A stretch of DNA of 64,000 bases from Chloroflexota bacterium (lineage in GTDB: Bacteria > Chloroflexota > Anaerolineae > Anaerolineales > Anaerolineaceae). Positions 20,439 to 38,208 of this stretch are shown here, one piece after another. The stretch covers positions 1 to 64,000 of the forward strand of contig JAKAFP010000005.1 of NCBI GenBank assembly GCA_021825925.1. Reading direction: 5' to 3'. The number at the start of each line of letters is the position of its first letter. The stretch's first letter is position 1. Below the pieces are notes generated by a model. The model did not search any database and was not told where the DNA came from. It saw nothing but the letters and a program-made list of their open reading frames with translations. Both the position numbers and the translations under genes were made by a program.

Positions 20439-20457
20439 GTAACCCTGGTTACACTTT
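20439..20457 (+). repeat. GTAACC-CT-GGTTAC palindrome, copy A
   Basis: A 14-bp palindrome is followed by ACTTT, just after the HAAS gene stop. Copies B (23164) and C (24450, inverted) share the arms and the ACTTT extension. The arms are too close together to form a hairpin, so a protein-binding site is more likely. Confidence 0.65.
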
Positions 20458-21395: not shown

Positions 21396-21442
21396 TGATA
21401 AAGCAAAAGGGCCAACACCTCCTGACTGCAAATAATTCACCC

Positions 21443-21517
21443 TGGCCAACAGGCAATTATTGCATTCTGGCCTGCGGGCAAACTTTTCCTTTTGGCCAAA
21501 GGGCAAAATTCTCCTCC
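21443..21517 (+). repeat. three 25-bp direct repeats (TGGCC-N4-GGCAA type)
   Basis: Units begin at 21443 (TGGCCAACAGGCAA), 21468 (TGGCCTGCGGGCAA) and 21493 (TGGCCAAAGGGCAA), each exactly 25 bp apart and followed by T/C-rich filler. Weaker copies may flank the block. Regular spacing near 2.4 helical turns is typical of iteron-like binding sites. Confidence 0.7.
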
Positions 21518-21652
21518 ACGCCAGAGTTAAAAAGCTGCACCCCGGCGAGGGTGAAAGATTTGCCTTAAGGCAGCCGGAGTGCAGAAATGAGCTTTCTGTG
21601 GAGTGCAAAAGATGCACGTCTTAATCGTGCAGAATTTGCACATGTTTCAATG

Positions 21653-21685
21653 ACTACTTAATTACTACTTAACAACCACTTGTTA
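21653..21685 (+). repeat. three tandem 11-bp repeats, AT-rich
   Basis: ACTACTTAATT, ACTACTTAACA and the diverged ACCACTTGTTA follow one another without gaps, immediately beside the end of the minus-strand gene that stops at 21689. Confidence 0.6.
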
Positions 21686-21688
21686 AAT

Positions 21689-22081
21689 CTAACTCTTCTT
21701 CTTTTTGACACGAATTAACTCATCCGGAAAGATCAGGTTCCAATCATAACGCGGACTTCGTGATGGTTGTTTGTATTTTCCGAGGTCAATGCTGCCGGAA
21801 CCGTAATCATTCAAAAAACGGGCAAGCGCCAGGGTGACCAGTTGGCTGGCCGGGATACGCAGTTCTTCAGATAGAGACATGATCTCTTCACGAAGGGTGG
21901 GTGGCAGATCATAAGTGGCGCGTTGATCGCGGCGTGACTGGATCTTGGCGCGTTCACGCCCGAGGCGTTCGCGTTCCTTGCGCGGAAGCTGACTCTCGGC
22001 CTGGCGCTGCTCCATGCCGCTCAGCAGGTCCGCCACGGCGGGGTCCAGGGTGGTGCGACGTTCAAATTTTTTCTCAGCCAT
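21689..22081 (-). CDS. small ribbon-helix-helix-like protein paired with ParA
   Basis: A highly charged protein of 130 residues with no close named family. The first 60 residues are Arg/Glu/Gln-rich and probably disordered or helical. Residues about 57-93 (RATYDLPPTLREEIMSLSEE, then PASQLVTLALARFL) fit a beta-strand plus two helices of the MetJ/Arc type used by centromere-binding ParG/omega-like adaptors. The C terminus ends in KKKKS. The start overlaps the upstream parA by 8 bases, so the two are translated together. By analogy with type Ib partition operons it would bind the centromere and the parA promoter operators; this is inferred from position and fold. Confidence 0.65.
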   Translation of the reverse strand: MAEKKFERRTTLDPAVADLLSGMEQRQAESQLPRKERERLGRERAKIQSRRDQRATYDLPPTLREEIMSLSEELRIPASQLVTLALARFLNDYGSGSIDLGKYKQPSRSPRYDWNLIFPDELIRVKKKKS

Positions 22082-22844
22082 TTATTACCTCCAGCATGCG
22101 TCCGAGTACTTGTTTGTAGCCACCCAACCGCTGCTTGCCATCCTTGTAGCCGTTCATCGCCACGGAATTGGGGGAGTAATCCCACAGGGTCTGGCCGTAA
22201 GCCACTGTCTCCCGCACGCGCGTATCCTGCGGGATGGGCGGCCAGAGGTGTTCGCCAAAGGTCTTGGCCAGGTCCTGGAACTGCAGAAAGGTTTCGCGGG
22301 TGGTGCGGTCAAAGAAGGTGGGCAGGATACTGTAACCGCGGTAACGATGTCCGCTCTGGTTGATCTCGGCCATGGTGGTCAGGATTTCCTTGACCCCGTC
22401 CACAGCCAAAGCGTCAGGCCGGGTGGGGATGATCACCCAATCCGCGGCGATCAATCCGTTGATGTGCAGCACATCCAGCGAGGGTGCCAGGTCGAGCAGT
22501 ACCGCGTCGTAAGGCGCATCCTGCAACAGGTCTGAAAGGATGCTTTCGCGGAAATCAGAAAGTGTGATCTGCCGTTTCACTTTTTCGGTTTGTTTGTCGC
22601 CTGTGACCAGGTCCAGGTTTGGCCGGATGGAGATGGTCACTTTTTCGAGCGGTTCATCCAGACAGACCAGGCGGTAAAGTCCTGGGGATTTTTCAAGACC
22701 GAAAGAGAGCGCCAGATGGCCCTGCGGATCAAGATCCACCAGTAACGTTTTAACTTTCATGCGCGCCAATCCGTCGGCCAGAGTGACAGCGGTGGTGGTT
22801 TTTCCGACCCCGCCTTTTTGGTTTGCGAAAGCAAAAATTTTCAT
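22074..22844 (-). CDS. parA: ParA family partition ATPase (first copy)
   Basis: A deviant-Walker ATPase of 256 residues. It shows the variant Walker A KGGVGKTTTAV (about 10-20), Walker A' LLVDLDPQGHLALS (about 36-49) and the Walker B-like DAVLLDLAPSLD. It lacks an N-terminal HTH, as expected of the short type Ib ParA. It is followed by an RHH-like gene overlapping by 8 bases. Upstream lie two promoter-like sequences, each with an AGGGTCGCCCCT-type site in its spacer, suggesting operon autoregulation. AAGGAAA precedes the ATG. MinD-like or capsule/flagellar ATPases are less likely given the pairing. Confidence 0.9.
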   Translation of the reverse strand: MKIFAFANQKGGVGKTTTAVTLADGLARMKVKTLLVDLDPQGHLALSFGLEKSPGLYRLVCLDEPLEKVTISIRPNLDLVTGDKQTEKVKRQITLSDFRESILSDLLQDAPYDAVLLDLAPSLDVLHINGLIAADWVIIPTRPDALAVDGVKEILTTMAEINQSGHRYRGYSILPTFFDRTTRETFLQFQDLAKTFGEHLWPPIPQDTRVRETVAYGQTLWDYSPNSVAMNGYKDGKQRLGGYKQVLGRMLEVING

Positions 22845-22908
22845 TTAAGAGAGTTTCCTTGTCGCGGGCGGAGAGTGGCGTTGCGGACATTAATGATTTC
22901 CGCGCGTA

Positions 22909-23009
22909 AGGGTCGCCTCTGGATATTATACAGGGTCACCCCTTGAAAAACAAGGGTCGCCCCTGAAAAAATATCCTCCGATTATACAGGGTCGCCCCTA
23001 GTCTGTTGT
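22909..23009 (-). promoter_or_regulatory. two parA promoters with four AGGGTCGCCCCT operators
   Basis: Near-identical 12-mers lie at 22909-22920, 22932-22943, 22953-22964 and 22988-22999. On the minus strand two TATAAT boxes occur (22925-22930 and 22981-22986). The first is paired with TTGTTT at 22948-22953 with a 17-bp spacer. The second has only a weak -35 (ACAACA). In both promoters one 12-mer lies inside the spacer. The rest of the 471-bp gap 22845-23315 holds no gene, only one GTAACC palindrome. Confidence 0.75.
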
Positions 23010-23163
23010 AATGGGCTAAAAGCGGCTGAAATCAGCAGAAAAGCAGTATTTGGACAGACCTTCATTTTGGCTCTCCAAAATCGGTATTTTATGATCTCTC
23101 TCCCGCGTTATTAATATCCGTGAGTATCTGCCTTGGTTGGCGAACTTTAACTTCTATCCATCA

Positions 23164-23182
23164 GTAACCACGGTTACACTTT
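23164..23182 (+). repeat. GTAACC-AC-GGTTAC palindrome, copy B
   Basis: It has the same arms and ACTTT extension as copies A and C. It lies in non-coding DNA between parA and the PD40 lipoprotein gene. Confidence 0.65.
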
Positions 23183-23315
23183 TTTAGAAATACAGGTTTA
23201 CCGATTCCCAGTTCGTTATTGCTCAGTCGGGAACTAAATGGTGGCATAATCAGTCCAAAGGGAGGGCAATGGCCGTCTGGCCAAAAAAGGCTGCCCAAAT
23301 GTCCACGGAGGCAGG

Positions 23316-24365
23316 ATGACAAAAGGACTAGTAATTTCTCTTTATGGGTTGACCGGTATTCTCATTTTGCTGGTGGGGTGTACTCAAAAGATCATTCCTA
23401 ACCAGGAAGTTGTAATGAATACCACAGCAGTTACAACCGTAATGGCTGCTCCTTTGCGAGACGTAGGATCCACAACTTTGGAACCAACATTGCCTGTACC
23501 CACGCTGACTGCACCTGTAGAATACATAACAGGGGACTGCAATAAAATAGCATTTTCGCAATATGATGGACAGAGTTACGATATTTATTCTGTCTGCCCA
23601 GATGGAAGCCGGTTGATGAATTTGACCAATGATCCGTCAGATGATGTTGATCCGGTCTGGTCACCGGATGGGACGCAGCTTGCATTCTCCTCAACACGTT
23701 CCGGGCATTTTCAAATTTATTTGATGTATGCGGATGGAACCGGGGTCTCAGCCTTGACCGCTGATTTTGAGAATCTAAAACCCATCTGGCTGCCGGACGG
23801 CAGACACATCGCCTTCAGAACAGATGACGGTAAGGGCCTTTATTGGTGGAGAATAATAAATCTTGATAATTCTGAACTGGTCACCCTTAGCGAACCCTCA
23901 TATGACTTCTTCTATCAAACCCCAGCCTGGTCGCCTGACGGAACGCGTATTGCTTACATGTCCCTGGTTGAACAACAGGAGCGGAATGATGGGGCAAGCC
24001 AGATCCATGTAAAAAATACGGATGGCACAAATGATGTGGCGCTGACCAATGATACCTGGGCGAACTTCAACCCAAAATGGTCGCCGGATGGAAAGAAGAT
24101 CGCTTTTCTCTCCGAGCGGGGAGCTTTGGATAAGTTTGCCTTATATCTGATGAACGCCGATGGTACTGAGGTACAGCAACTCACCGATGTCGGTTACCCA
24201 GCGGATGTGGTTTACTCCTGGTCCCCGGATGGCAACCAGATTGCGATTGGCGGCAATAATCTGTTCAACGGAATAAATATCATTGATATCAAATCAAAAA
24301 CTTCCCGTCCTTTGATGGAATGGTCTAACCCGGCGAACGTTATCTCTCCTTCCTGGCAGCCTTAG
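23316..24365 (+). CDS. TolB-like PD40 beta-propeller lipoprotein
   Basis: An exported lipoprotein of 349 residues. Its signal peptide ends in the lipobox LLVGC (Cys about 27), and a Thr/Pro-rich linker follows. Five or more PD40/WD40-like blades carry WSPDGT.IAF motifs (DPVWSPDGTQLAFSSTRSG, then TPAWSPDGTRIAYMS, then NPKWSPDGKKIAFLSERG, then YSWSPDGNQIAIGG). Such propellers usually mediate protein-protein contacts at the cell surface. GGAGG lies before the ATG. It is the only gene in the par module with no obvious link to DNA maintenance and may be cargo. A bidirectional terminator separates it from parB. Confidence 0.85.
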   Translation: MTKGLVISLYGLTGILILLVGCTQKIIPNQEVVMNTTAVTTVMAAPLRDVGSTTLEPTLPVPTLTAPVEYITGDCNKIAFSQYDGQSYDIYSVCPDGSRLMNLTNDPSDDVDPVWSPDGTQLAFSSTRSGHFQIYLMYADGTGVSALTADFENLKPIWLPDGRHIAFRTDDGKGLYWWRIINLDNSELVTLSEPSYDFFYQTPAWSPDGTRIAYMSLVEQQERNDGASQIHVKNTDGTNDVALTNDTWANFNPKWSPDGKKIAFLSERGALDKFALYLMNADGTEVQQLTDVGYPADVVYSWSPDGNQIAIGGNNLFNGINIIDIKSKTSRPLMEWSNPANVISPSWQP

Positions 24366-24449
24366 TTGATCAGAGCAAGTTTCGATTTCCTTGAGGAAGA
24401 TGGAAAGGTTCCCTGCAGATTGTAGTTCCGCGGAGGACTGCTTTTTAAT

Positions 24450-24468
24450 AAAGTGTAACCACGGTTAC
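24450..24468 (-). repeat. GTAACC-GT-GGTTAC palindrome, copy C (inverted)
   Basis: On the minus strand it reads GTAACCGTGGTTAC followed by ACTTT, as in copies A and B. It lies in the gap between the PD40 gene and parB. Confidence 0.65.
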
Positions 24469-24476
24469 TAATAATA

Positions 24477-24504
24477 AAAACCCGGTGATTAATCACCGGG
24501 TTTT
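24477..24504. terminator. bidirectional terminator between PD40 gene and parB
   Basis: A 28-bp perfect palindrome (half AAAACCCGGTGATT) can fold into a 12-bp stem with a TTAA loop and T-runs on both strands. It sits between convergent genes. Confidence 0.9.
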
Positions 24505-24539
24505 ACAATTCTCGATTATCTACTCTCTATTCTCTGAAA

Positions 24540-25679
24540 TTATTTCCGATCCAACCTTGCCTTGATCAGCCTGGCCAGTTCTTCAATCAGCGTCAGGGAT
24601 TCTTTTCCGTTGCCCTTGACCACCAGGGTGTCGGCGATCTCGTCCAGGGCTTCGTCGCGGCTTAAGCGATCCAGTTCTGAGAGGGTCTGCACAAAACGTC
24701 GCATGGAGCGTGCGGCCTGGCGGCCCGGTTCGGGCAGGATGGGGGTGGGAGGTTTACGGTTCGTTCCTTCATTGACTTGCGGCAGGGTGACCATTTCCGA
24801 GACCTCGTCCGAGGTTAACTGGTTTTGAATGCTCAGACGGATCATGCGATCCCACTGCTCACGTGGGGCAGAAAGGATCTCGCGCAGGACGCGTTCTGAA
24901 AGACGATAGCGGTCGGCCATATCCAGCTGCTGGGTTGAGAGCTGCAGAATATTGAGCAACTGCACCATACGCGGACGGGTGAGCTGCATGACGGGCATCA
25001 GTTTTTCCCACAAGCCGGAGGGCATGCGCGAGTTGCGTGCCTGTCTGAAAAACTCGTAATCATCTTCCACTTCGGGGTCGGGTTCGATCCCCAATTCTGC
25101 CAAAATTAACGAAGCCACTTCGCAGGCCTGCTCCACCGCGGAAGGTGGTTCGGCATGGCGGTTCTCAAGTACCTGGCGCTGTCGGGTGGGATGGTCCACC
25201 ACTTCCACCCGCAGTTGAGGTTCATCCGCAGCGCCGGAGGAGGCGTATTGTAAACAGGCCGCCCAGAAGCGACGTTCGCCTGTCTCGATCTGAAAGACAT
25301 AATCGCCGTTCGCGCCGCTGACCCACTTGCCGGTGATGGATTTGATCTGCCCGTGTTCTTCAAAGGAAGATCCCATCAGCAGCAGCTTTTCGATCTCGGC
25401 AGCCGCACCCTGGTCGGCGCGTGCCAGCGCCAGCCATTCCATGGCAGCCTGGTAGCAATTCAAACGCCCGCTAAAAAAGTCCGCGCGCAGAGAGGGGGGC
25501 AGCAAACGGCGCGGTTGAAAACGGTCGGGGATCATCTGGCTGGGGGCCAGACGTTCGATCCGCTCAACAGCGGACGCTTGCTGTGGCTGCTCAATGATTG
25601 AAGGGGTCTGGATCTTGGTCTTTTCGGAGGCAGAAGCGGAAAGGTCGTCAAAGGCGCTGAAGCGTTTTTTAGGTGGCAT
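24540..25679 (-). CDS. parB: ParB-like partition protein
   Basis: A protein of 379 residues with the ParB layout. It has a flexible N terminus, then a core (about 105-150) in which GSSFEEHGQIKSITGKWV and YVFQIETGERRFWAACLQ match the ParB boxes, including the GERR nucleotide-binding motif. A central HTH region follows (about 225-290, with LTRPRMVQLLNILQLS and RYRLSERVLREIL). A linker and a charged C-terminal helix (LIEELARLIKARLDRK) suitable for dimerisation complete it. It is 23 bases downstream of a ParA gene, forming a type Ia-like pair. Its site is unknown; the GTAACC palindromes nearby are candidates. AAGGAAG precedes the ATG. Confidence 0.85.
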   Translation of the reverse strand: MPPKKRFSAFDDLSASASEKTKIQTPSIIEQPQQASAVERIERLAPSQMIPDRFQPRRLLPPSLRADFFSGRLNCYQAAMEWLALARADQGAAAEIEKLLLMGSSFEEHGQIKSITGKWVSGANGDYVFQIETGERRFWAACLQYASSGAADEPQLRVEVVDHPTRQRQVLENRHAEPPSAVEQACEVASLILAELGIEPDPEVEDDYEFFRQARNSRMPSGLWEKLMPVMQLTRPRMVQLLNILQLSTQQLDMADRYRLSERVLREILSAPREQWDRMIRLSIQNQLTSDEVSEMVTLPQVNEGTNRKPPTPILPEPGRQAARSMRRFVQTLSELDRLSRDEALDEIADTLVVKGNGKESLTLIEELARLIKARLDRK

Positions 25680-25702
25680 AAAAAGTCTTCCTTTTCAGGT
25701 GC

Positions 25703-26542
25703 TTAGCCGGACTTGGTCTTTTTGAGAATGGACTCCACCAGATCGGCATACTCGTGGGTGGCGCGTGAACTGGAGGCGATATTTTCGGCGGTGCGTGACC
25801 GGGGTGGACGATAGGTGAAGACATCCATGTGGCTGGAGTGGGCGTAAGCCAGGTCCGAGGCTTTGTGGATCGGAGGCAGCAGGTTTTGTTTGAAACGCTG
25901 CTGCAGTTCGCCAAGGATCTCCTGAGCTTCGGCACGCTGCTCTTCACACAAGGTGGGCAAATAACCAAGGATCTTAAGGTCAGGGCGGAAATGCATCTGT
26001 ACCTGTTCGATGGTGCGCTGCAGTTCGATCAAGCCTGAGACCCCCAGGTAGCTGGTCTCGACCGGGATCAGCACATGGCTGGCGGCTACGAGGGCGTTAA
26101 TCAGAAGGTCTCCGGTGGTCGGGGGGGTGTCAATAATGATGAAGGCGTAATCGTTTTGCACGCCTGCCAGGGCGCGCTGCAGTCGCGTTTCATTGGCCAT
26201 CAGGGCGGGTAGTTCGCGGGCGGCCTTGATCATCTCCCCGTGGTCCGAGGGGATGAAGAACAGGTTGGGATGATGGTCGCTCTTTTGAATGATGCGCTGG
26301 ATAGAAGGCGGCGGGGTCTCGGTGAGCAATGCTGCCAGAGAGGCGGGTAGTTTTTGCTGACCTTTTTCAAACGCGGTGGCGAGCAGGGCGTGTCCCTGGG
26401 GGTCCATGTCCACCAGCAGCACACGGCTGGCGGGTCCGGTTTTATCAGACAGGCGCAAGGCTAATCCCGCGGCCAGGTTGACTGCTGTGGTGGTTTTACC
26501 CACTCCACCCTTTTCATTTGCGATCGAAATCGTGATTGCCAT
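25703..26542 (-). CDS. parA: ParA family partition ATPase (second copy)
   Basis: A deviant-Walker ATPase of 279 residues. It has KGGVGKTTTAVNLAAG (about 11-26), LLVDMDPQGHALLA (about 43-56), the Walker B-like AFIIIDTPPTTGDLLINALV (about 130-149) and the Soj-like block ETSYLGVSGLIELQ.TIEQV. No N-terminal HTH is present. It is followed after 23 bases by parB. It is clearly distinct in sequence from the ParA at 22074-22844, so the two are separate systems rather than a recent duplication. The divergent 203-bp region shared with the AAA ATPase gene probably carries its promoter; ATTATA at 26588 gives a TATAAT on the minus strand. Confidence 0.92.
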   Translation of the reverse strand: MAITISIANEKGGVGKTTTAVNLAAGLALRLSDKTGPASRVLLVDMDPQGHALLATAFEKGQQKLPASLAALLTETPPPSIQRIIQKSDHHPNLFFIPSDHGEMIKAARELPALMANETRLQRALAGVQNDYAFIIIDTPPTTGDLLINALVAASHVLIPVETSYLGVSGLIELQRTIEQVQMHFRPDLKILGYLPTLCEEQRAEAQEILGELQQRFKQNLLPPIHKASDLAYAHSSHMDVFTYRPPRSRTAENIASSSRATHEYADLVESILKKTKSG

Positions 26543-26679
26543 GCGAGTTCTTACCCTTCTTTTCTCATATTTGTTGATTTTGAGAAGATTATACTCATTT
26601 TTCTTGCTTCCGATATCATATTAGCATAAAATAATTGGTACTTCAACTAATTGCGCTAAATCATGTTTTAAAACCAGAA

Positions 26680-26738
26680 ATTACCGTAATTCTATTGATT
26701 TGATTCCGATTTCGTGCGATAATTCATGTGCAGGAGGA
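26680..26738 (+). promoter_or_regulatory. promoter of the AAA ATPase / Rep-like operon
   Basis: TTGATT (26695-26700) and GATAAT (26718-26723) are 17 bases apart. Just upstream lies the palindrome ATTACCGTAAT (26680-26690). The expected start point falls directly before the ribosome site GGAGGA (26733-26738), giving a very short leader. Confidence 0.6.
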
Positions 26739-26745
26739 AGAACAC

Positions 26746-27564
26746 ATGTTTGATTCCATGAATGATAACGAGTGGCGCCTGATCCGGCTTGAACGCCTGG
26801 GTCTGAAAGAGGATCCATTTAAACTTTCAGCCGATCCGCGTTACCTCTACCTTGGCCCTGAGCACCTGGCGGTTTATCGTCAGGCACAGGGTGTCATTTC
26901 GCGCCGCCGCGGATTGGCCCTCATCACCGGCGACATGGGCATGGGCAAGAGTTCACTTGCCCGGCGCCTCTATGATGTGTATGCCTCCGAAGAGAATATT
27001 GATATCTGCTACATTCATACAGCGGCCTTTAAGTCAGCCATGGACGCCGCCCGCCAGATCTCACAAACCCTGGGGGTGCCTCCCCAACGCTCCTTCCAGC
27101 GTCAGATGGAGGGGCTGGAAAAATTCATGGCCGATGCCTATGCCGCCAACCACAACGTAATTGTACTGCTGGATGACGCTCAGTTGATGGAAGGCGAAGC
27201 GCTTGAAGTGCTACACCGTCTTTACAATTTTGATTATGACGCCAAGGTGGTTCAAGTGCTGGCTTTCGGCCAGTCTGAAATGTCTGGCGTGTTCGAGTTG
27301 AACAAATCGGTCAACGCACGCGTCTTTGTGCGTCTAGCCCTGCCTCCCCTCACCCTCTCCAGTGCGTTGCAGATGGTGGTTTTCAGGCTGCGGGTGGCTG
27401 GCCGGTCAGAGCCGTTGATCAATGATGATGCTTTTGAAGTCTTGTACGAAAAATCGCAAGGTGTGCCACGCGAGATCATCCGTCTGTGTGCCCTTTCGAT
27501 GGACCATTTGCTGCAGAGTGAAGATTCCATGATCAGCGTGGAAATCGCTCGGAAGGTGAAGTGA
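26746..27564 (+). CDS. ExeA/TniB-like AAA ATPase
   Basis: An AAA ATPase of 272 residues. It starts with the typical LGLKEDPFKLSADPRYLYLG (about 15-34). Walker A is GDMGMGKSSLARRL (about 63-76) and Walker B VIVLLDDAQLM (about 136-146), followed by the ExeA-type LEVLHRLYNFDY and a C-terminal helical lid (YEKSQGVPREIIRLCALSMD). Relatives serve in type II secretion (ExeA/GspA), in transposition (TniB, MuB-like) and in plasmid functions; no transposase or secretin lies nearby. The ATG at 26746 follows GGAGGAAG. It shares a 4-base overlap with the next gene and heads a three-gene operon ending in the DnaA-domain-I protein, so a DNA-replication role is inferred. Confidence 0.85.
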   Translation: MFDSMNDNEWRLIRLERLGLKEDPFKLSADPRYLYLGPEHLAVYRQAQGVISRRRGLALITGDMGMGKSSLARRLYDVYASEENIDICYIHTAAFKSAMDAARQISQTLGVPPQRSFQRQMEGLEKFMADAYAANHNVIVLLDDAQLMEGEALEVLHRLYNFDYDAKVVQVLAFGQSEMSGVFELNKSVNARVFVRLALPPLTLSSALQMVVFRLRVAGRSEPLINDDAFEVLYEKSQGVPREIIRLCALSMDHLLQSEDSMISVEIARKVK

Positions 27565-27896
27565 GTATGGCTGCTAACACGAACTCCAACCGGAGTGCCT
27601 GGGTGCAACTCTATGAAGCCCGCAGCGTGCCCAGCGAACCCGAAAGTCGTTCGCCGGGTCGTCCGCCGGGTATTGTGCCGCGGCGCAAAGTCGGGCTTAC
27701 CCTGTCACAGGGTGAGATCACCGAAATTGAACATTGGCAGGATCGTTTTTCCAATTTAATGGGACGCAAAGTATCCGTCGGTGAGACCGTCGGTATTCTG
27801 GTGCGTATTTGTTCTGCCCGTTTGGCGAATCTTGAAGAAGAACTGGATACCCAGGTTCTTTCGATGTTCGTGGAGAAATTGGTTGGCGAGGAATGA
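27561..27896 (+). CDS. small basic protein of the Rep-like operon, unrecognised
   Basis: An unrecognised protein of 111 residues (GTG start overlapping the previous stop as GTGA), or 109 from the ATG at 27567. The first 45 residues are Ser/Pro/Arg-rich (SRSPGRPPGIVPRRK) and look disordered and DNA- or RNA-binding. The remainder (LTLSQGEITEIEHWQDRFSN, then KVSVGETVGILVRICSARLA) could form a ribbon-helix-helix or a short helical domain. Tight coupling to the AAA ATPase suggests that the two products work together. The function is unknown. Confidence 0.7.
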   Translation: MSMAANTNSNRSAWVQLYEARSVPSEPESRSPGRPPGIVPRRKVGLTLSQGEITEIEHWQDRFSNLMGRKVSVGETVGILVRICSARLANLEEELDTQVLSMFVEKLVGEE

Positions 27897-28078
27897 ATTA
27901 TTTCTTCCAAAAACCCAGGGGTTTTCCGGTAGAAAAAATTATTCAACAGGTTGATGAACGGAAGATTTCGCGAAGAGACCAGTAAAGAGAAATTAGAATA
28001 AATGTTCTGAATTAGTAATACTTGGGATAAAACAACGGCGGCAGGGTGGGGTTGCCGAGAATTCAGGAAAGGGTCTGC

Positions 28079-29014
28079 ATGGACCAGCCGTTACAAAACC
28101 GATCATTGGGAGTGAACCTGCCTGGGCATAAAGAAGCCTGGGAAATGGTGCTCGGGGAGCTGCGCCACGATATGTCGCGTGCCCTTTACGAGACCTGGGT
28201 TCAACCCCTGCGTTTGATCGGTTACGAGAACAAGACCTTTACGGTGGGGGCATACAACACTTACGGCAAGGCCTGGGTGGAAGAGCGCCTCAGCGCCCAG
28301 ATTTCCCGTATTCTCGAAGGACTTTACAGCGAACCGGTGGCCTTTAAGGTGATTGTGCAAAACGGTTTCTATAAGGGCAACAATGCTTCAGCCTCGGTCA
28401 GCTCACTGCAACCGTCGTACCAGGTGGCGGGTGATTTCAAAGAACCAACCATCAAAGTCGAAGAAGACGAACCTTCCATTTTGGTCTCGACCAAAACAGA
28501 TCTTTTTGCAGAAGAAGACGAAACCCCGGCAGGCGCAGCGCCGGTGAACGATCGTTCACGCAAGTTCATGCTGCAGCGCGCCTACGGCAGCGAAAGGGCA
28601 CGCCTCATCCAGCCCGAGCGCGGCATGTTCCTCACCAATTACTTTTTCAATAACTGGCTGCCCCTGTTGGGGCATTCCGCTTTTACCGTCATCATGGCTG
28701 CCCGCTCGCTGTGCTTCTGGAACCCCATGACCGGCGAACTGCGCAACGTGGTCGAAACCGAAATGGGCGAACTGGCCGAAAGGGCCGCCGTCTCCGTCCG
28801 CACCGTCAAGGATGTGCTCAACAACGAACTGGTGCAGCGCTACTTTTTACGCTACCGCGTGCGCCGGGTGATGACCTCCAACGGTGTCAGAACCGCCGGC
28901 ATTAGCCTGCAGGTGCGCATGGACGATCCCCTCACGCCGCTGGATCAGGTCACTTCCGGGCTGATGGAAGAAGAGGAATGGTACTTCCCCGAGTTCTCGG
29001 GGGAGAAAGAATAG
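28079..29014 (+). CDS. DnaA domain I fused to a Rep-like winged-helix region
   Basis: A protein of 311 residues from ATG 28079, preceded by GAAAGGG; an in-frame GTG lies at 28046. Residues about 18-90 match DnaA domain I: WEMVLGELRHDMSRALYETW, then VGAYNTYGKAWVEERL, then a final F.V.V strand. That domain self-associates and contacts the replicative helicase. An acidic linker follows (about 105-155). The C-terminal part (about 160-295) has FLTNYFFNNWLPLLGHSAF and a predicted HTH (MGELAERAAVSVRTVKDVL), like plasmid Rep or primosomal DnaD-type winged helices. There is no AAA+ domain and no DnaA domain IV signature. It ends the operon and may recruit helicase to a local origin; this is inferred. 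Confidence 0.8.
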   Translation: MDQPLQNRSLGVNLPGHKEAWEMVLGELRHDMSRALYETWVQPLRLIGYENKTFTVGAYNTYGKAWVEERLSAQISRILEGLYSEPVAFKVIVQNGFYKGNNASASVSSLQPSYQVAGDFKEPTIKVEEDEPSILVSTKTDLFAEEDETPAGAAPVNDRSRKFMLQRAYGSERARLIQPERGMFLTNYFFNNWLPLLGHSAFTVIMAARSLCFWNPMTGELRNVVETEMGELAERAAVSVRTVKDVLNNELVQRYFLRYRVRRVMTSNGVRTAGISLQVRMDDPLTPLDQVTSGLMEEEEWYFPEFSGEKE

Positions 29015-36604: not shown

Positions 36605-37621
36605 TTATGTTTCGTGCCGGCTTTGCAAAACTCTGAAAGAGAAAAAACCGATCAATAACGGCAGCCAAAGTGTGATCGCGCGGTAAGTAAAAGTGATCAA
36701 AACAGCTTTGCCAAAAGGCACCCTTAGAGTGGTTAAAATTAAGGGGAAGAGGCCCTCAACCACACCAACACCACCGGGCGTGGGGGAGATATAGTAAAAC
36801 AATTGGCCGATACTAAATCCACCAATGATGGTCCCCACAGAGTAAGGAACATTCATGGCCATGAAGGTGAATGCCAAGATACAGATCAGAATGGCTTTGT
36901 TATTGAGAGCAAACAAGAAGGGCCAGATCAGTTTTTTGGGTTTTGCCCGAATGGTGGATATGCCATCGGCAATTTCGGTTGAAAGGAAATAGGCATTGCC
37001 TACATTGATCAGGTCGCGGTGGAAGAAGCGTCGCACTCTTCTATTTGCCCACCTGGAAAGTCCCGTGAGCAGCAACCCCAGGCGTTTCTGTGAAATATAC
37101 CCCAGATAAAGTACCACGCCCACGCCCAGGGCAATGGCCAGCATGAAGAGCGCTGCAGATATCTCGCCTACGCCCAAATGACCGCGGCGGAGCAGCACCA
37201 CGAATCCAACCGTCACCACGCATAACAAAGAGGCGTATTCATAAAGCAGGTAGAGGATGCCCACCACCAGCACCCGGCCTGACGAAAGTTTGCGTTGTTT
37301 GGCTGAATCAATGATCACAGCCAGACCACTCATCCCACCACTGGGGGCGATCATACTGATGAAGGTGGAGGCGGTGGTCTGAAGCAACAAATTCCAACGA
37401 GTTTCTCTCATACCAACCAGTTGGTAGAGTGAACCATAAACTGCGGTTGCGTTGAATAGGCAGATGAATTCAAAAATAAAAGCGACTACCAGGAATGGAA
37501 AATTTCCCAGACGCAGCGTCTCAATAATGGATTGGATTTGGGTGAAACTGACCACCACATAGAGGACAGCAAGGAGGATCACGATCAGTTGAATGATTCT
37601 TCTCATTGAAAGTCTTTGCAT
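36605..37621 (-). CDS. flippase-like membrane protein (UPF0104, LPG-synthase TM region)
   Basis: An integral membrane protein of 338 residues with about eight hydrophobic segments. It matches the MprF/AglD2-type TM domain: FEFICLFNATAVYGSLYQLVG (helix 2), then ISMIAPSGGMSGLAVII (about 98-114), then YYISPTPGGVGVVEGLFP (about 272-289), which is the characteristic PGG.G..E motif. Relatives flip or hold lipid-linked substrates such as lysyl-phosphatidylglycerol or polyprenyl sugars. The soluble synthase domain of MprF is absent, so it is a stand-alone transporter domain. AGGGA precedes the ATG. The scramblase-like gene follows, suggesting a shared membrane-lipid role. Confidence 0.82.
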   Translation of the reverse strand: MQRLSMRRIIQLIVILLAVLYVVVSFTQIQSIIETLRLGNFPFLVVAFIFEFICLFNATAVYGSLYQLVGMRETRWNLLLQTTASTFISMIAPSGGMSGLAVIIDSAKQRKLSSGRVLVVGILYLLYEYASLLCVVTVGFVVLLRRGHLGVGEISAALFMLAIALGVGVVLYLGYISQKRLGLLLTGLSRWANRRVRRFFHRDLINVGNAYFLSTEIADGISTIRAKPKKLIWPFLFALNNKAILICILAFTFMAMNVPYSVGTIIGGFSIGQLFYYISPTPGGVGVVEGLFPLILTTLRVPFGKAVLITFTYRAITLWLPLLIGFFSFRVLQSRHET

Positions 37622-37750
37622 TGATTTCCCTGGCTAATGTTTGCAGCTTGAGCAGATATCTAACTATAACTTTTTTCTATAAAACTGGAAAGGTGAAATT
37701 CCATGACATTCCAAAATCTGCCGATCCGGGTCTGTTTGGAGTAAAATTGG

Positions 37751-37806
37751 GCACGCGGCGATGGAGTCCGCCCTTAACCGCCTCGTTGCTGATGACTCCT
37801 GATTTT
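37751..37806 (+). ncRNA. fluoride riboswitch (crcB motif)
   Basis: The conserved blocks are present in order and spacing: GGCGATGGAGTCCGCC, then AACCGCC, then GCTGATGACTCCTGA. The gene downstream encodes the fluoride channel CrcB, which matches the known function of this RNA class. The 3' part TGATGACTCC (37790-37799) is complementary, with one bulge, to the ribosome-binding segment at 37813-37823. This suggests translational control. Confidence 0.95.
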
Positions 37807-37824
37807 GTTATTGGAGTTCATCAC

Positions 37825-38208
37825 ATGCGTGACATCATTATCATTGGAACAGGCGGCTTTATTGGTGCAGTATTGCGCTACTTTGCGATCCTCTCCATGC
37901 AGCTTTTCAAATCAAAAACACATATCCCCATGGGCACCCTGTTGGTGAACGTGGTTGGCTGCCTCTTGATCGGATTTTTGGCAGTAACGGCCGAGAACAG
38001 CAAATTGATCTCGGCCGATACCCGTAACTTTTTGGTGGTCGGCATTTTGGGTGCCTTCACCACTTTCTCGACTTTTGGCTATGAGTCGGTCAGCTTGTTA
38101 AAAAGCGGCTTGAACATCCAATTCGCGCTCAACATTGCTTTGCAGCTTGTGCTGGGCTTTGCCGCCGTTTGGGGCGGCATGCACCTCGCCAAACTCATTG
38201 CCAGGTAA
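37825..38208 (+). CDS. crcB: fluoride efflux channel CrcB/Fluc
   Basis: Inner-membrane fluoride channel subunit of 127 residues with four TM segments. It works as an antiparallel dimer and protects against cytoplasmic fluoride. Conserved elements are GTGGFIGAVLRY (about 6-17), GTLLVNVVGCLLIGF (about 34-48) and the Phe-box GAFTTFSTFGYE (about 76-87). The start at 37825 follows GGAG and gives the usual length. The frame is open further upstream, but that part overlaps the fluoride riboswitch and cannot be coding. The single gene converges on acr3. Confidence 0.96.
   Translation: MRDIIIIGTGGFIGAVLRYFAILSMQLFKSKTHIPMGTLLVNVVGCLLIGFLAVTAENSKLISADTRNFLVVGILGAFTTFSTFGYESVSLLKSGLNIQFALNIALQLVLGFAAVWGGMHLAKLIAR

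Follow-up and report, generated by a model that had tools for sequence, protein, structure and literature searches.

The window analyzed here is a stretch of 64,000 nucleotides, positions 1–64,000 of the 402,660-bp contig C3 in the draft assembly (3.4 Mb, 15 contigs) of an Anaerolineaceae bacterium (genome G000; phylum Chloroflexota). It carries a module of two partition systems, a ribbon-helix-helix (RHH) protein with ParA1 and a ParB with ParA2, together with an ExeA-type AAA ATPase, a small basic protein and a protein that we call Rep. We conclude, with high though not complete confidence, that this locus is the replication and segregation center of a separate circular replicon, either a large plasmid or a chromid, and that C3, with the window at its start, represents most of that replicon. 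Instead of a plasmid fragment within the chromosome, the cluster is probably part of a separate circular DNA of roughly 0.4 megabases, and belongs to a family represented in about a quarter of the Anaerolineaceae genomes sampled. As judged by sequence comparison, the genes of the module keep their order across the family, and the module is located on separate circles in three relatives and coincides with the minimum of the GC skew in four of six replicons. The first-pass annotation of this DNA had recognized a plasmid-like replication and partition module, which these data support. It had also placed the module inside a chromosomal window, a setting that gives way to the secondary replicon; the integrated plasmid or chromosomal region-organizing system that it considered are not supported, because of the circles in the three relatives and the position of the skew minimum.

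A probable separate circular molecule

Three relatives carry the module on a circular molecule. The plasmid HRD7plasmid of Leptolinea sp. HRD-7 (AP024711.1; 212,187 bp) was deposited as circular. The second of the two contigs of Longilinea arvoryzae KOME-1 (G044:C2; 293,070 bp) has ends that rejoin a single 455-codon lipoprotein frame, with the signal peptide at the contig start and the mature part at the contig end. Contig G041:C16 (287 kb) has an exact 141-bp terminal repeat or overlap, which would be the mark of a circular contig from an assembly with k=141; a contig name with k141 occurs among the records of the ExeA scan described below.

For C3 itself, circularity is reached only through two further relatives, G013 and G010. 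A comparison of C3 with contigs C3 and C27 of the congener G013 gave 82 matching pieces of at least 500 bp, which amount to 235 kb at 67–89% identity (mean 78%); once three secondary pieces were dropped, the order of the pieces is kept and none is inverted. G013:C27 carries homologs of both ends of C3 in one orientation and thereby bridges them: the contig continues beyond the homolog of the C3 end for 32 kb without a match, and then reaches the homologs of the C3 start. The same two ends are found 37 kb apart on G010:C6. From this bridging and the collinearity we deduce that G013 has a circle of about 429 kb (a tiling of C3 and C27 with two unread contig junctions) and G000 a similar one.

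Attempts to close C3 from its own ends were unsuccessful, as the ends do not overlap and no frame of 60 codons crosses the junction. Positions 1–133 of the window are a dispersed repeat that is also present at the starts of contigs C2, C7, C9, C12 and C14, near the end of C15 and within C5, and that probably broke the assembly. The contig of Ornatilinea apprima P3M-1 (contig_2; 357,091 bp) has no end overlap either; a long frame crosses its junction but stops 31 codons beyond it, and was not counted.

No tRNA was detected on the five replicons examined, and no rRNA on C3. The dnaA gene lies on a different contig in G000 (C15) and G044, as does the gene for ribosomal protein S12 in all six genomes (C1 in G000). 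An Rfam search of C3, made in stretches, returned only a fluoride riboswitch in the window (RF01734, 46 bits, plus strand, 37748–37808), which falls inside the start of an open frame at 37606–38208. The module genes (21689–29014) have a GC content of 0.54–0.58 (0.47 for the PD40 gene described below), against 0.454 for the whole contig.

The module coincides with the skew minimum in four of six replicons

The cumulative GC skew was tested against 2000 permutations of 10-kb blocks. On C3 the minimum lies at 20.5 kb and the module at 21.7–29.0 kb, with none of the permutations reaching the observed range. The same holds for G013 (minimum at 16.5 kb, module at 15.7–22.6 kb; 0/2000), and the minimum also adjoins or falls within the module on the Leptolinea plasmid (191 kb; module at 190.1–197.9 kb) and on the Ornatilinea contig (74 kb; module at 73.2–80.0 kb). 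The minimum is therefore at most 5 kb from the module midpoint in these four of the six replicons, and the minimum-to-module distances of five replicons combined, with G013 omitted as a congener, give a Fisher P of 3e-4. The skew maximum is near the opposite point of the circle, with arms of 0.478 in C3, 0.481 in Longilinea, 0.472 in the Leptolinea plasmid and 0.486 in Ornatilinea. In silico, the skew points to an origin at a rep/par locus of the plasmid type in C3, G013, the Leptolinea plasmid and Ornatilinea.

Organization of the locus

All genes named at first pass were recovered, with positions that agree with those given there exactly or to within a few bases. The features of the locus are as follows.

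20439–20452: parS-like palindrome GTAACCCTGGTTAC, directly after a HAAS/sensor gene
21689–22081, minus strand: RHH-like DNA-binding protein, candidate centromere-binding protein and repressor (Pfam RHH_3, E=5e-4, 20.4 bits against a cut-off of 21.6)
22074–22844, minus strand: ParA1, a small ParA ATPase (AAA_31, 1e-37)
22332–22345: one-mismatch parS-like palindrome inside parA1
22909–22999, minus strand: four GGGGYGACCCT-like repeats 5' of parA1 among TATAAT-like sequence, candidate RHH operator/centromere
23164–23177: parS-like palindrome GTAACCACGGTTAC
23316–24365, plus strand: PD40 beta-propeller lipoprotein (PD40, 1e-29)
24455–24468: parS-like palindrome GTAACCACGGTTAC, immediately 3' of parB
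24540–25679, minus strand: ParB of the helix-turn-helix (HTH) type with a GERRFWAA box, under the Pfam cut-offs alone; its family profile finds Spo0J/Noc structures
25703–26542, minus strand: ParA2 (AAA_31, 1.5e-41)
26543–26745: AT-rich (0.67) divergent region that extends to an ATG at 26746 and contains TTAGCATA (at 26621); it may be a control region or belong to the origin
26728–27564, plus strand: ExeA-type AAA ATPase (AAA_22, 1.8e-16)
27561–27896, plus strand: small basic protein, its gene coupled to that of the ATPase, no Pfam match
28046–29014, plus strand: Rep, with DnaA domain I, a linker and a conserved winged-helix-like block; candidate initiator (DnaA_N, 37.8 bits, cut-off 24.6)

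The rhh and parA1 genes overlap by eight bases. ParA1 and ParA2 share 32% identity, in agreement with the earlier remark that the two are clearly different. Of the at least four non-coding repeat families that had been proposed, two hold up, GTAACCNNGGTTAC and GGGGYGACCCT. The PD40 lipoprotein is probably cargo, as had been suggested, with weak support from its distribution: among the family loci compared, it is present at this site only in G000 and G007.

Conservation and distribution of the module

Full-length Rep is present in 37 of 147 family genomes, about a quarter, with scores of at least 413 bits and the next match at 100 bits. A ParB search matched 36 of 121 genomes, the source genome included, and wider loci were read from 28 of the other 35. 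Comparison of gene order across relatives, which the first-pass annotation had proposed as a check, shows that the order RHH-ParA1-[cargo]-ParB-ParA2 / ExeA-small-Rep is kept in the family loci that are long enough, apart from gene losses. A scan of genome contigs with the ExeA family gave 37 loci, among which are those of Longilinea arvoryzae KOME-1, Ornatilinea apprima P3M-1 contig_2 and the Leptolinea sp. HRD-7 plasmid. Chloroflexota-type labels are attached to 36 of the loci, and the label Verrucomicrobia to one. The Verrucomicrobia label belongs to a contig of a metagenome-assembled genome (MAG; locus L134) whose ExeA is 82% identical, and which is probably mis-binned or the product of a transfer.

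ParB and ParA2, a probable ParABS system with conserved palindromes

The locus has a ParA ATPase gene adjoining that of a ParB with an HTH and the GERR motif, which we take to mark the CTP site. The ParB family profile matches Spo0J/Noc structures (6sdk, E=2.6e-6). GERR is invariant in all 28 aligned rows, and a GQIKPITG sequence resembles box I.

In the window, GTAACCNNGGTTAC has 10 matches at up to three mismatches, with both strands of the palindrome counted, against 2.5 expected, and none of 100 shuffles reaches 10. Exact copies number three in the 402 kb of C3, all at 20.4–24.5 kb, where 0.02 would be expected. Genome-wide, a 15-base version of the palindrome is no commoner at up to two mismatches than its reversed control (9 against 16). 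For GTAACCNNGGTTAC, it is the clustering alone that is unusual.

A de novo ranking of palindromes within 3 kb of parB, covering all 6-base half-sites with spacers of 0–10, placed GTAACC-NN-GGTTAC first, in 20 of 24 loci and in 14 of 17 after genus thinning. The next five palindromes are the same site shifted, and the first unrelated one (TGAACG, spacer 2) occurs in 7 loci. Across 40 exact sites, the majority consensus reads AAAGTGTAACCRYGGTTACACTTT. Besides the 20 loci with exact palindromes near parB, two (L055 and L071) have one-mismatch sites only. One-mismatch sites within parA1 are also present in seven congeners (L046–L049 and L051–L053). All three exact sites of Ornatilinea lie in the module or at most 1.5 kb from it, Longilinea has two one-mismatch sites, both within the module, and the single exact site of G041 is beside rhh. 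The Leptolinea plasmid has no exact GTAACCNNGGTTAC, and ParB and ParA2 of this type are missing there as well; in their place are two genes (L099:10980–13381; 351 and 449 amino acids, no Pfam family at the cut-off) that are possibly another partition system.

The RHH protein and its repeats

Partition systems of type I with an RHH protein are classed as type Ib. The arrangement of a small ParA followed by an RHH protein is found here, with an RHH match that is weak and just under the Pfam cut-off. A tblastn match to RHH is present in 20 of the 23 other family loci with this ParB, although that in G023 extends over only 34 residues; two of the three loci without a match are short contigs.

Counted as a bare 12-mer over the window, GGGGYGACCCT is not significant (8 copies against 3.7 expected; 6 of 100 shuffles reach 8). 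It is the clustering and the conservation of these repeats that carry them, not the count in the window: 5' of parA1, 18 of the 19 ParA1 loci, the Leptolinea plasmid included, have one to four copies at up to one mismatch, where the shuffle means are at most 0.015.

In Longilinea, G039 and G033, rhh has no parA1 beside it, and G023 is perhaps a further case. Across the whole Longilinea replicon, ParA2 is the only ParA found. Longilinea, G039 and G033 each keep two repeats 5' of rhh, at up to one mismatch; the repeats follow the RHH protein, not ParA1. Their retention with rhh where parA1 is gone suggests that they are the operator of an autorepressor and serve as a centromere as well.

Either partition system can be missing, namely parA1 in Longilinea, G039 and G033, rhh together with parA1 in the 18 kb read of G015, and ParB/ParA2 in Leptolinea, which points to partial redundancy of the two systems.

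A second, divergent dual-partition cassette was found in G040 (contig C11, locus L072, 7015–11134), with 35% identity for ParB, 38% for ParA2, 50% for ParA1 and 54% for RHH. No ExeA or Rep match occurs in its 17 kb, no GGGGYGACCCT lies 5' of its parA1 paralogue, and the same genome also carries the main module.

Rep, the ExeA-type ATPase and the small protein

The DnaA_N family matches all 22 Reps. Domain I is the part of DnaA that contacts the helicase. In Rep it is followed by a variable linker and a conserved block, with most of the invariant columns in residues 171–311; 17 of the 22 blocks have a weak HTH match (LacI), and we read this C-terminal block as a probable winged helix. Rep is not a DnaA initiator in the usual sense, since domain I alone matches and neither the AAA+ domain III nor domain IV was found.

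The two domain types recur in other arrangements. In G114, which belongs to another family of the same order, the slot after ExeA and the small gene (L065:9003–11083) holds one frame with two HTH blocks followed by domain I. In other Chloroflexota classes (L259:4232–5818 and L260:4444–5865), the HTH block comes first and a domain-I-like end, recognized by eye, comes last. This recurrence in either order supports a functional pairing of the two domains. The architecture is not exclusive to replicons, because similar proteins occur in another Chloroflexota class, in one case beside serS- and thyX-like genes. Across 400 genomes of the phylum the only full-length Rep was that of G000 itself. The phylum matches listed lie for the most part over domain I; they also include five places, distributed over four genomes (G321, G134, G351 and G132), where the C-terminal block only is matched. 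No Rep3_N protein was found in six genomes, other Rep families not having been searched, and PLSDB typing of the HRD-7 plasmid names no replicon or relaxase.

The ExeA-type ATPase is 72–100% identical in the 20 relatives aligned. The region between ParA2 and ExeA is AT-rich (0.55–0.74) and measures 170–258 bases in 20 of 21 loci, with TTAGCATA in 15 of 21. DnaA boxes were considered and rejected: four scattered matches were found between ParA2 and ExeA (L051, L052, L053 and L056), one between the small gene and rep (L059) and none in the window. The small protein has no Pfam family (one of 18 members matched ParB_C, at E=0.19), and its candidacy as a second RHH protein, suggested by eye, was dropped, as profile comparison with the RHH family gave a probability of 0.1%.

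A model for replication and segregation

The features suggest the following scheme. Through its C-terminal winged-helix-like block, Rep would bind an origin within the locus, and through DnaA domain I it would recruit the replicative helicase of the host. The ExeA-type ATPase, together with the small protein, would perhaps act as a remodeller or loader; two forks would then proceed to a terminus on the opposite side of the circle. ParB would load on the GTAACCNNGGTTAC sites beside its own gene, and ParA2 would move the ParB complexes apart. The RHH protein is predicted to bind the GGGGYGACCCT repeats in the parA1/rhh promoter and to repress it, and the RHH-bound repeats may give ParA1 an additional centromere to act on, one that is partly redundant.

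On a broader view, which we hold with belief and doubt in equal measure, the module defines an old and largely vertically inherited family of secondary replicons in the Anaerolineaceae. Its initiator would be of a new class that joins DnaA domain I to winged-helix origin-binding blocks in either order, and that recruits the chromosome's helicase through a copied contact domain with a dedicated ExeA-type ATPase. The HTH-ParB and RHH systems would back each other up and be lost or replaced singly.

Alternative readings

Several observations weigh against a replicon with its origin and initiator at this locus. C3 is not closed, and both of its ends are repeats common to other contigs of the same MAG. 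The skew minimum of Longilinea lies at 226.5 kb and the module at 203.0–209.5 kb, 20 kb away when measured from the midpoint; no permutation reaches the skew range there (0/2000). In G041 the minimum is at 15.5 kb and the module at 21.9–28.8 kb, with a skew that is not significant (175/2000). The range is reached by 6 of 2000 permutations in the Leptolinea plasmid and 1 of 2000 in Ornatilinea, and the skew arm is 0.59 in G013 and 0.79 in G041. Two loci with ParB, L050 and L058 (genomes G039, 19.9 kb read, and G003, a short contig), have neither an exact nor a one-mismatch palindrome. One gene of the HTH/domain-I-like kind adjoins serS- and thyX-like genes and is probably chromosomal. Initiation by Rep and the predicted DNA binding are, moreover, deduced from sequence.

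Whether the replicon is a true chromid, inherited vertically and endowed with indispensable genes, is a refinement of the separate-replicon reading and not an exclusive rival to it; we consider it possible, although the balance tilts the other way. C3 and G013 are collinear along the whole molecule, the GC content of C3 (0.454) is close to that of 64.8 kb of other contigs (0.461), and ParB or full-length Rep is found in 13 of the 16 genomes of the genus. However, a genus member that is 96% complete (G012) lacks both ParB and Rep, as does G031, and G061 lacks Rep. No counterpart at a bit-score ratio of 0.35 exists on any of four other replicons for 293 of the 331 open reading frames of C3. None of tRNA, rRNA, dnaA and S12, the only core genes looked for, lies on the replicons examined. 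The dinucleotide distance (delta*) of 20-kb pieces of C3 to other contigs is 19–58, as compared with 13–24 among those other pieces; for G044:C2 it is 41 against one 20-kb piece of C1.

A second alternative, which appears doubtful, is that Rep is a regulator and that the ExeA-type ATPase or an unrecognized gene is the real initiator. It would agree with the better conservation of ExeA relative to Rep, with a weak Orc1/Cdc6 similarity of ExeA that is far under the cut-off, and with the occurrence of Rep-like proteins beside chromosomal genes elsewhere. By contrast, the DnaA domain I common to all Reps, the constant company of Rep with the ExeA and small genes, also at loci that lack ParB/ParA2, and the reverse-order HTH and domain-I pairing in the same slot of G114 favor Rep as the initiator.

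That the module is a chromosomally integrated plasmid or an integrative element is very improbable: this reading has in its favor the dispersed repeats at the C3 ends, because of which integration in G000 alone keeps a small probability, and the absence of any match near the module outside the genus for the eight window genes that flank it, but it is opposed by the circles of the three relatives, in which chromosomal flanks are excluded (as they are not in G000 itself), by the occurrence of both C3 ends on single contigs of G013 and G010, by the skew, which is V-shaped over all 402 kb and lowest at the module, by the lack of full-length Rep in the single-contig family genomes G031 and G061, by the location of Rep on C2 and not C1 in the two-contig genomes that have it (G044 and G058), and by the absence of a PF03432 relaxase from six genomes, integrases and other relaxase families not having been searched.

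Significance and comparison with known systems

In the 37 sampled family genomes with Rep, part of what now stands as an undifferentiated draft is probably a separate molecule. The module gives initiator and parS candidates for Chloroflexota secondary replicons, and it supplies shuttle-vector parts for the Anaerolineaceae, for which we know of no genetic tools. It also offers a way to ask, in a natural system, whether the helicase can be loaded at a second origin by re-use of DnaA domain I alone. Recruitment of the chromosome's helicase by Rep, if true, could couple the replicon to the cycle of the chromosome.

Among the open-licence papers listed by the literature searches, none was found to describe this family of replicons, the Rep or the parS. 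Large plasmids with dual partition systems have been described before. The premise that one replicon rarely needs two partition systems, from which the first-pass annotation argued, is out of date: about 19% of PLSDB plasmids with a recognizable partition system have more than one (PMC13245405). A 375-kb chromid has been reported in another Chloroflexota order (PMC10972752), as have 75 circular contigs, potentially chromids, from a hot-spring metagenome, which are not tied to Anaerolineae there (PMC9671151). In the available text of the Longilinea and Ornatilinea genome announcements (PMC4574363, PMC4653792), the words plasmid and replicon do not appear.

SCP1 of Streptomyces, a plasmid of about 0.36 Mb, resembles the present replicon in that it carries two partition systems of type I; it is linear with two HTH-ParB systems, whereas here one HTH-ParB and one RHH system are found on a circle (PMC13245405). 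The chromid-like extrachromosomal elements of Ktedonobacteria are likewise large Chloroflexota secondary replicons with a V-shaped skew, parA near the putative origin and no canonical Rep found by Pfam; they are described as lacking parB, while the module studied here has ParB, RHH and a Rep candidate (PMC13289182). Plas-ZRK of cold-seep Chloroflexota (CP069395.1) shares a ParA-ParB pair, with 29% identity in ParB, and differs in that RHH, ExeA, the small protein and Rep all failed to give a tblastn match (1e-4) in the 25 kb examined.

A further close relative in kind is the Leptolinea HRD-7 plasmid, with ParA1-RHH (68/67% identity), ExeA (74%), the small protein (55%) and Rep (50%) at the skew minimum of a circle. 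It differs in the lack of a ParB match and of an exact GTAACCNNGGTTAC, and its sole match to ParA2 is its own ParA1 (32%); in its annotation, Rep, ExeA, the small protein and RHH appear only as hypothetical proteins. Finally, Rep resembles chromosomal DnaA in its N-terminal domain I (PDB 8btg, E=1.4e-10), and departs from it in carrying an HTH-containing winged-helix-like block in place of the AAA+ domain III and domain IV.

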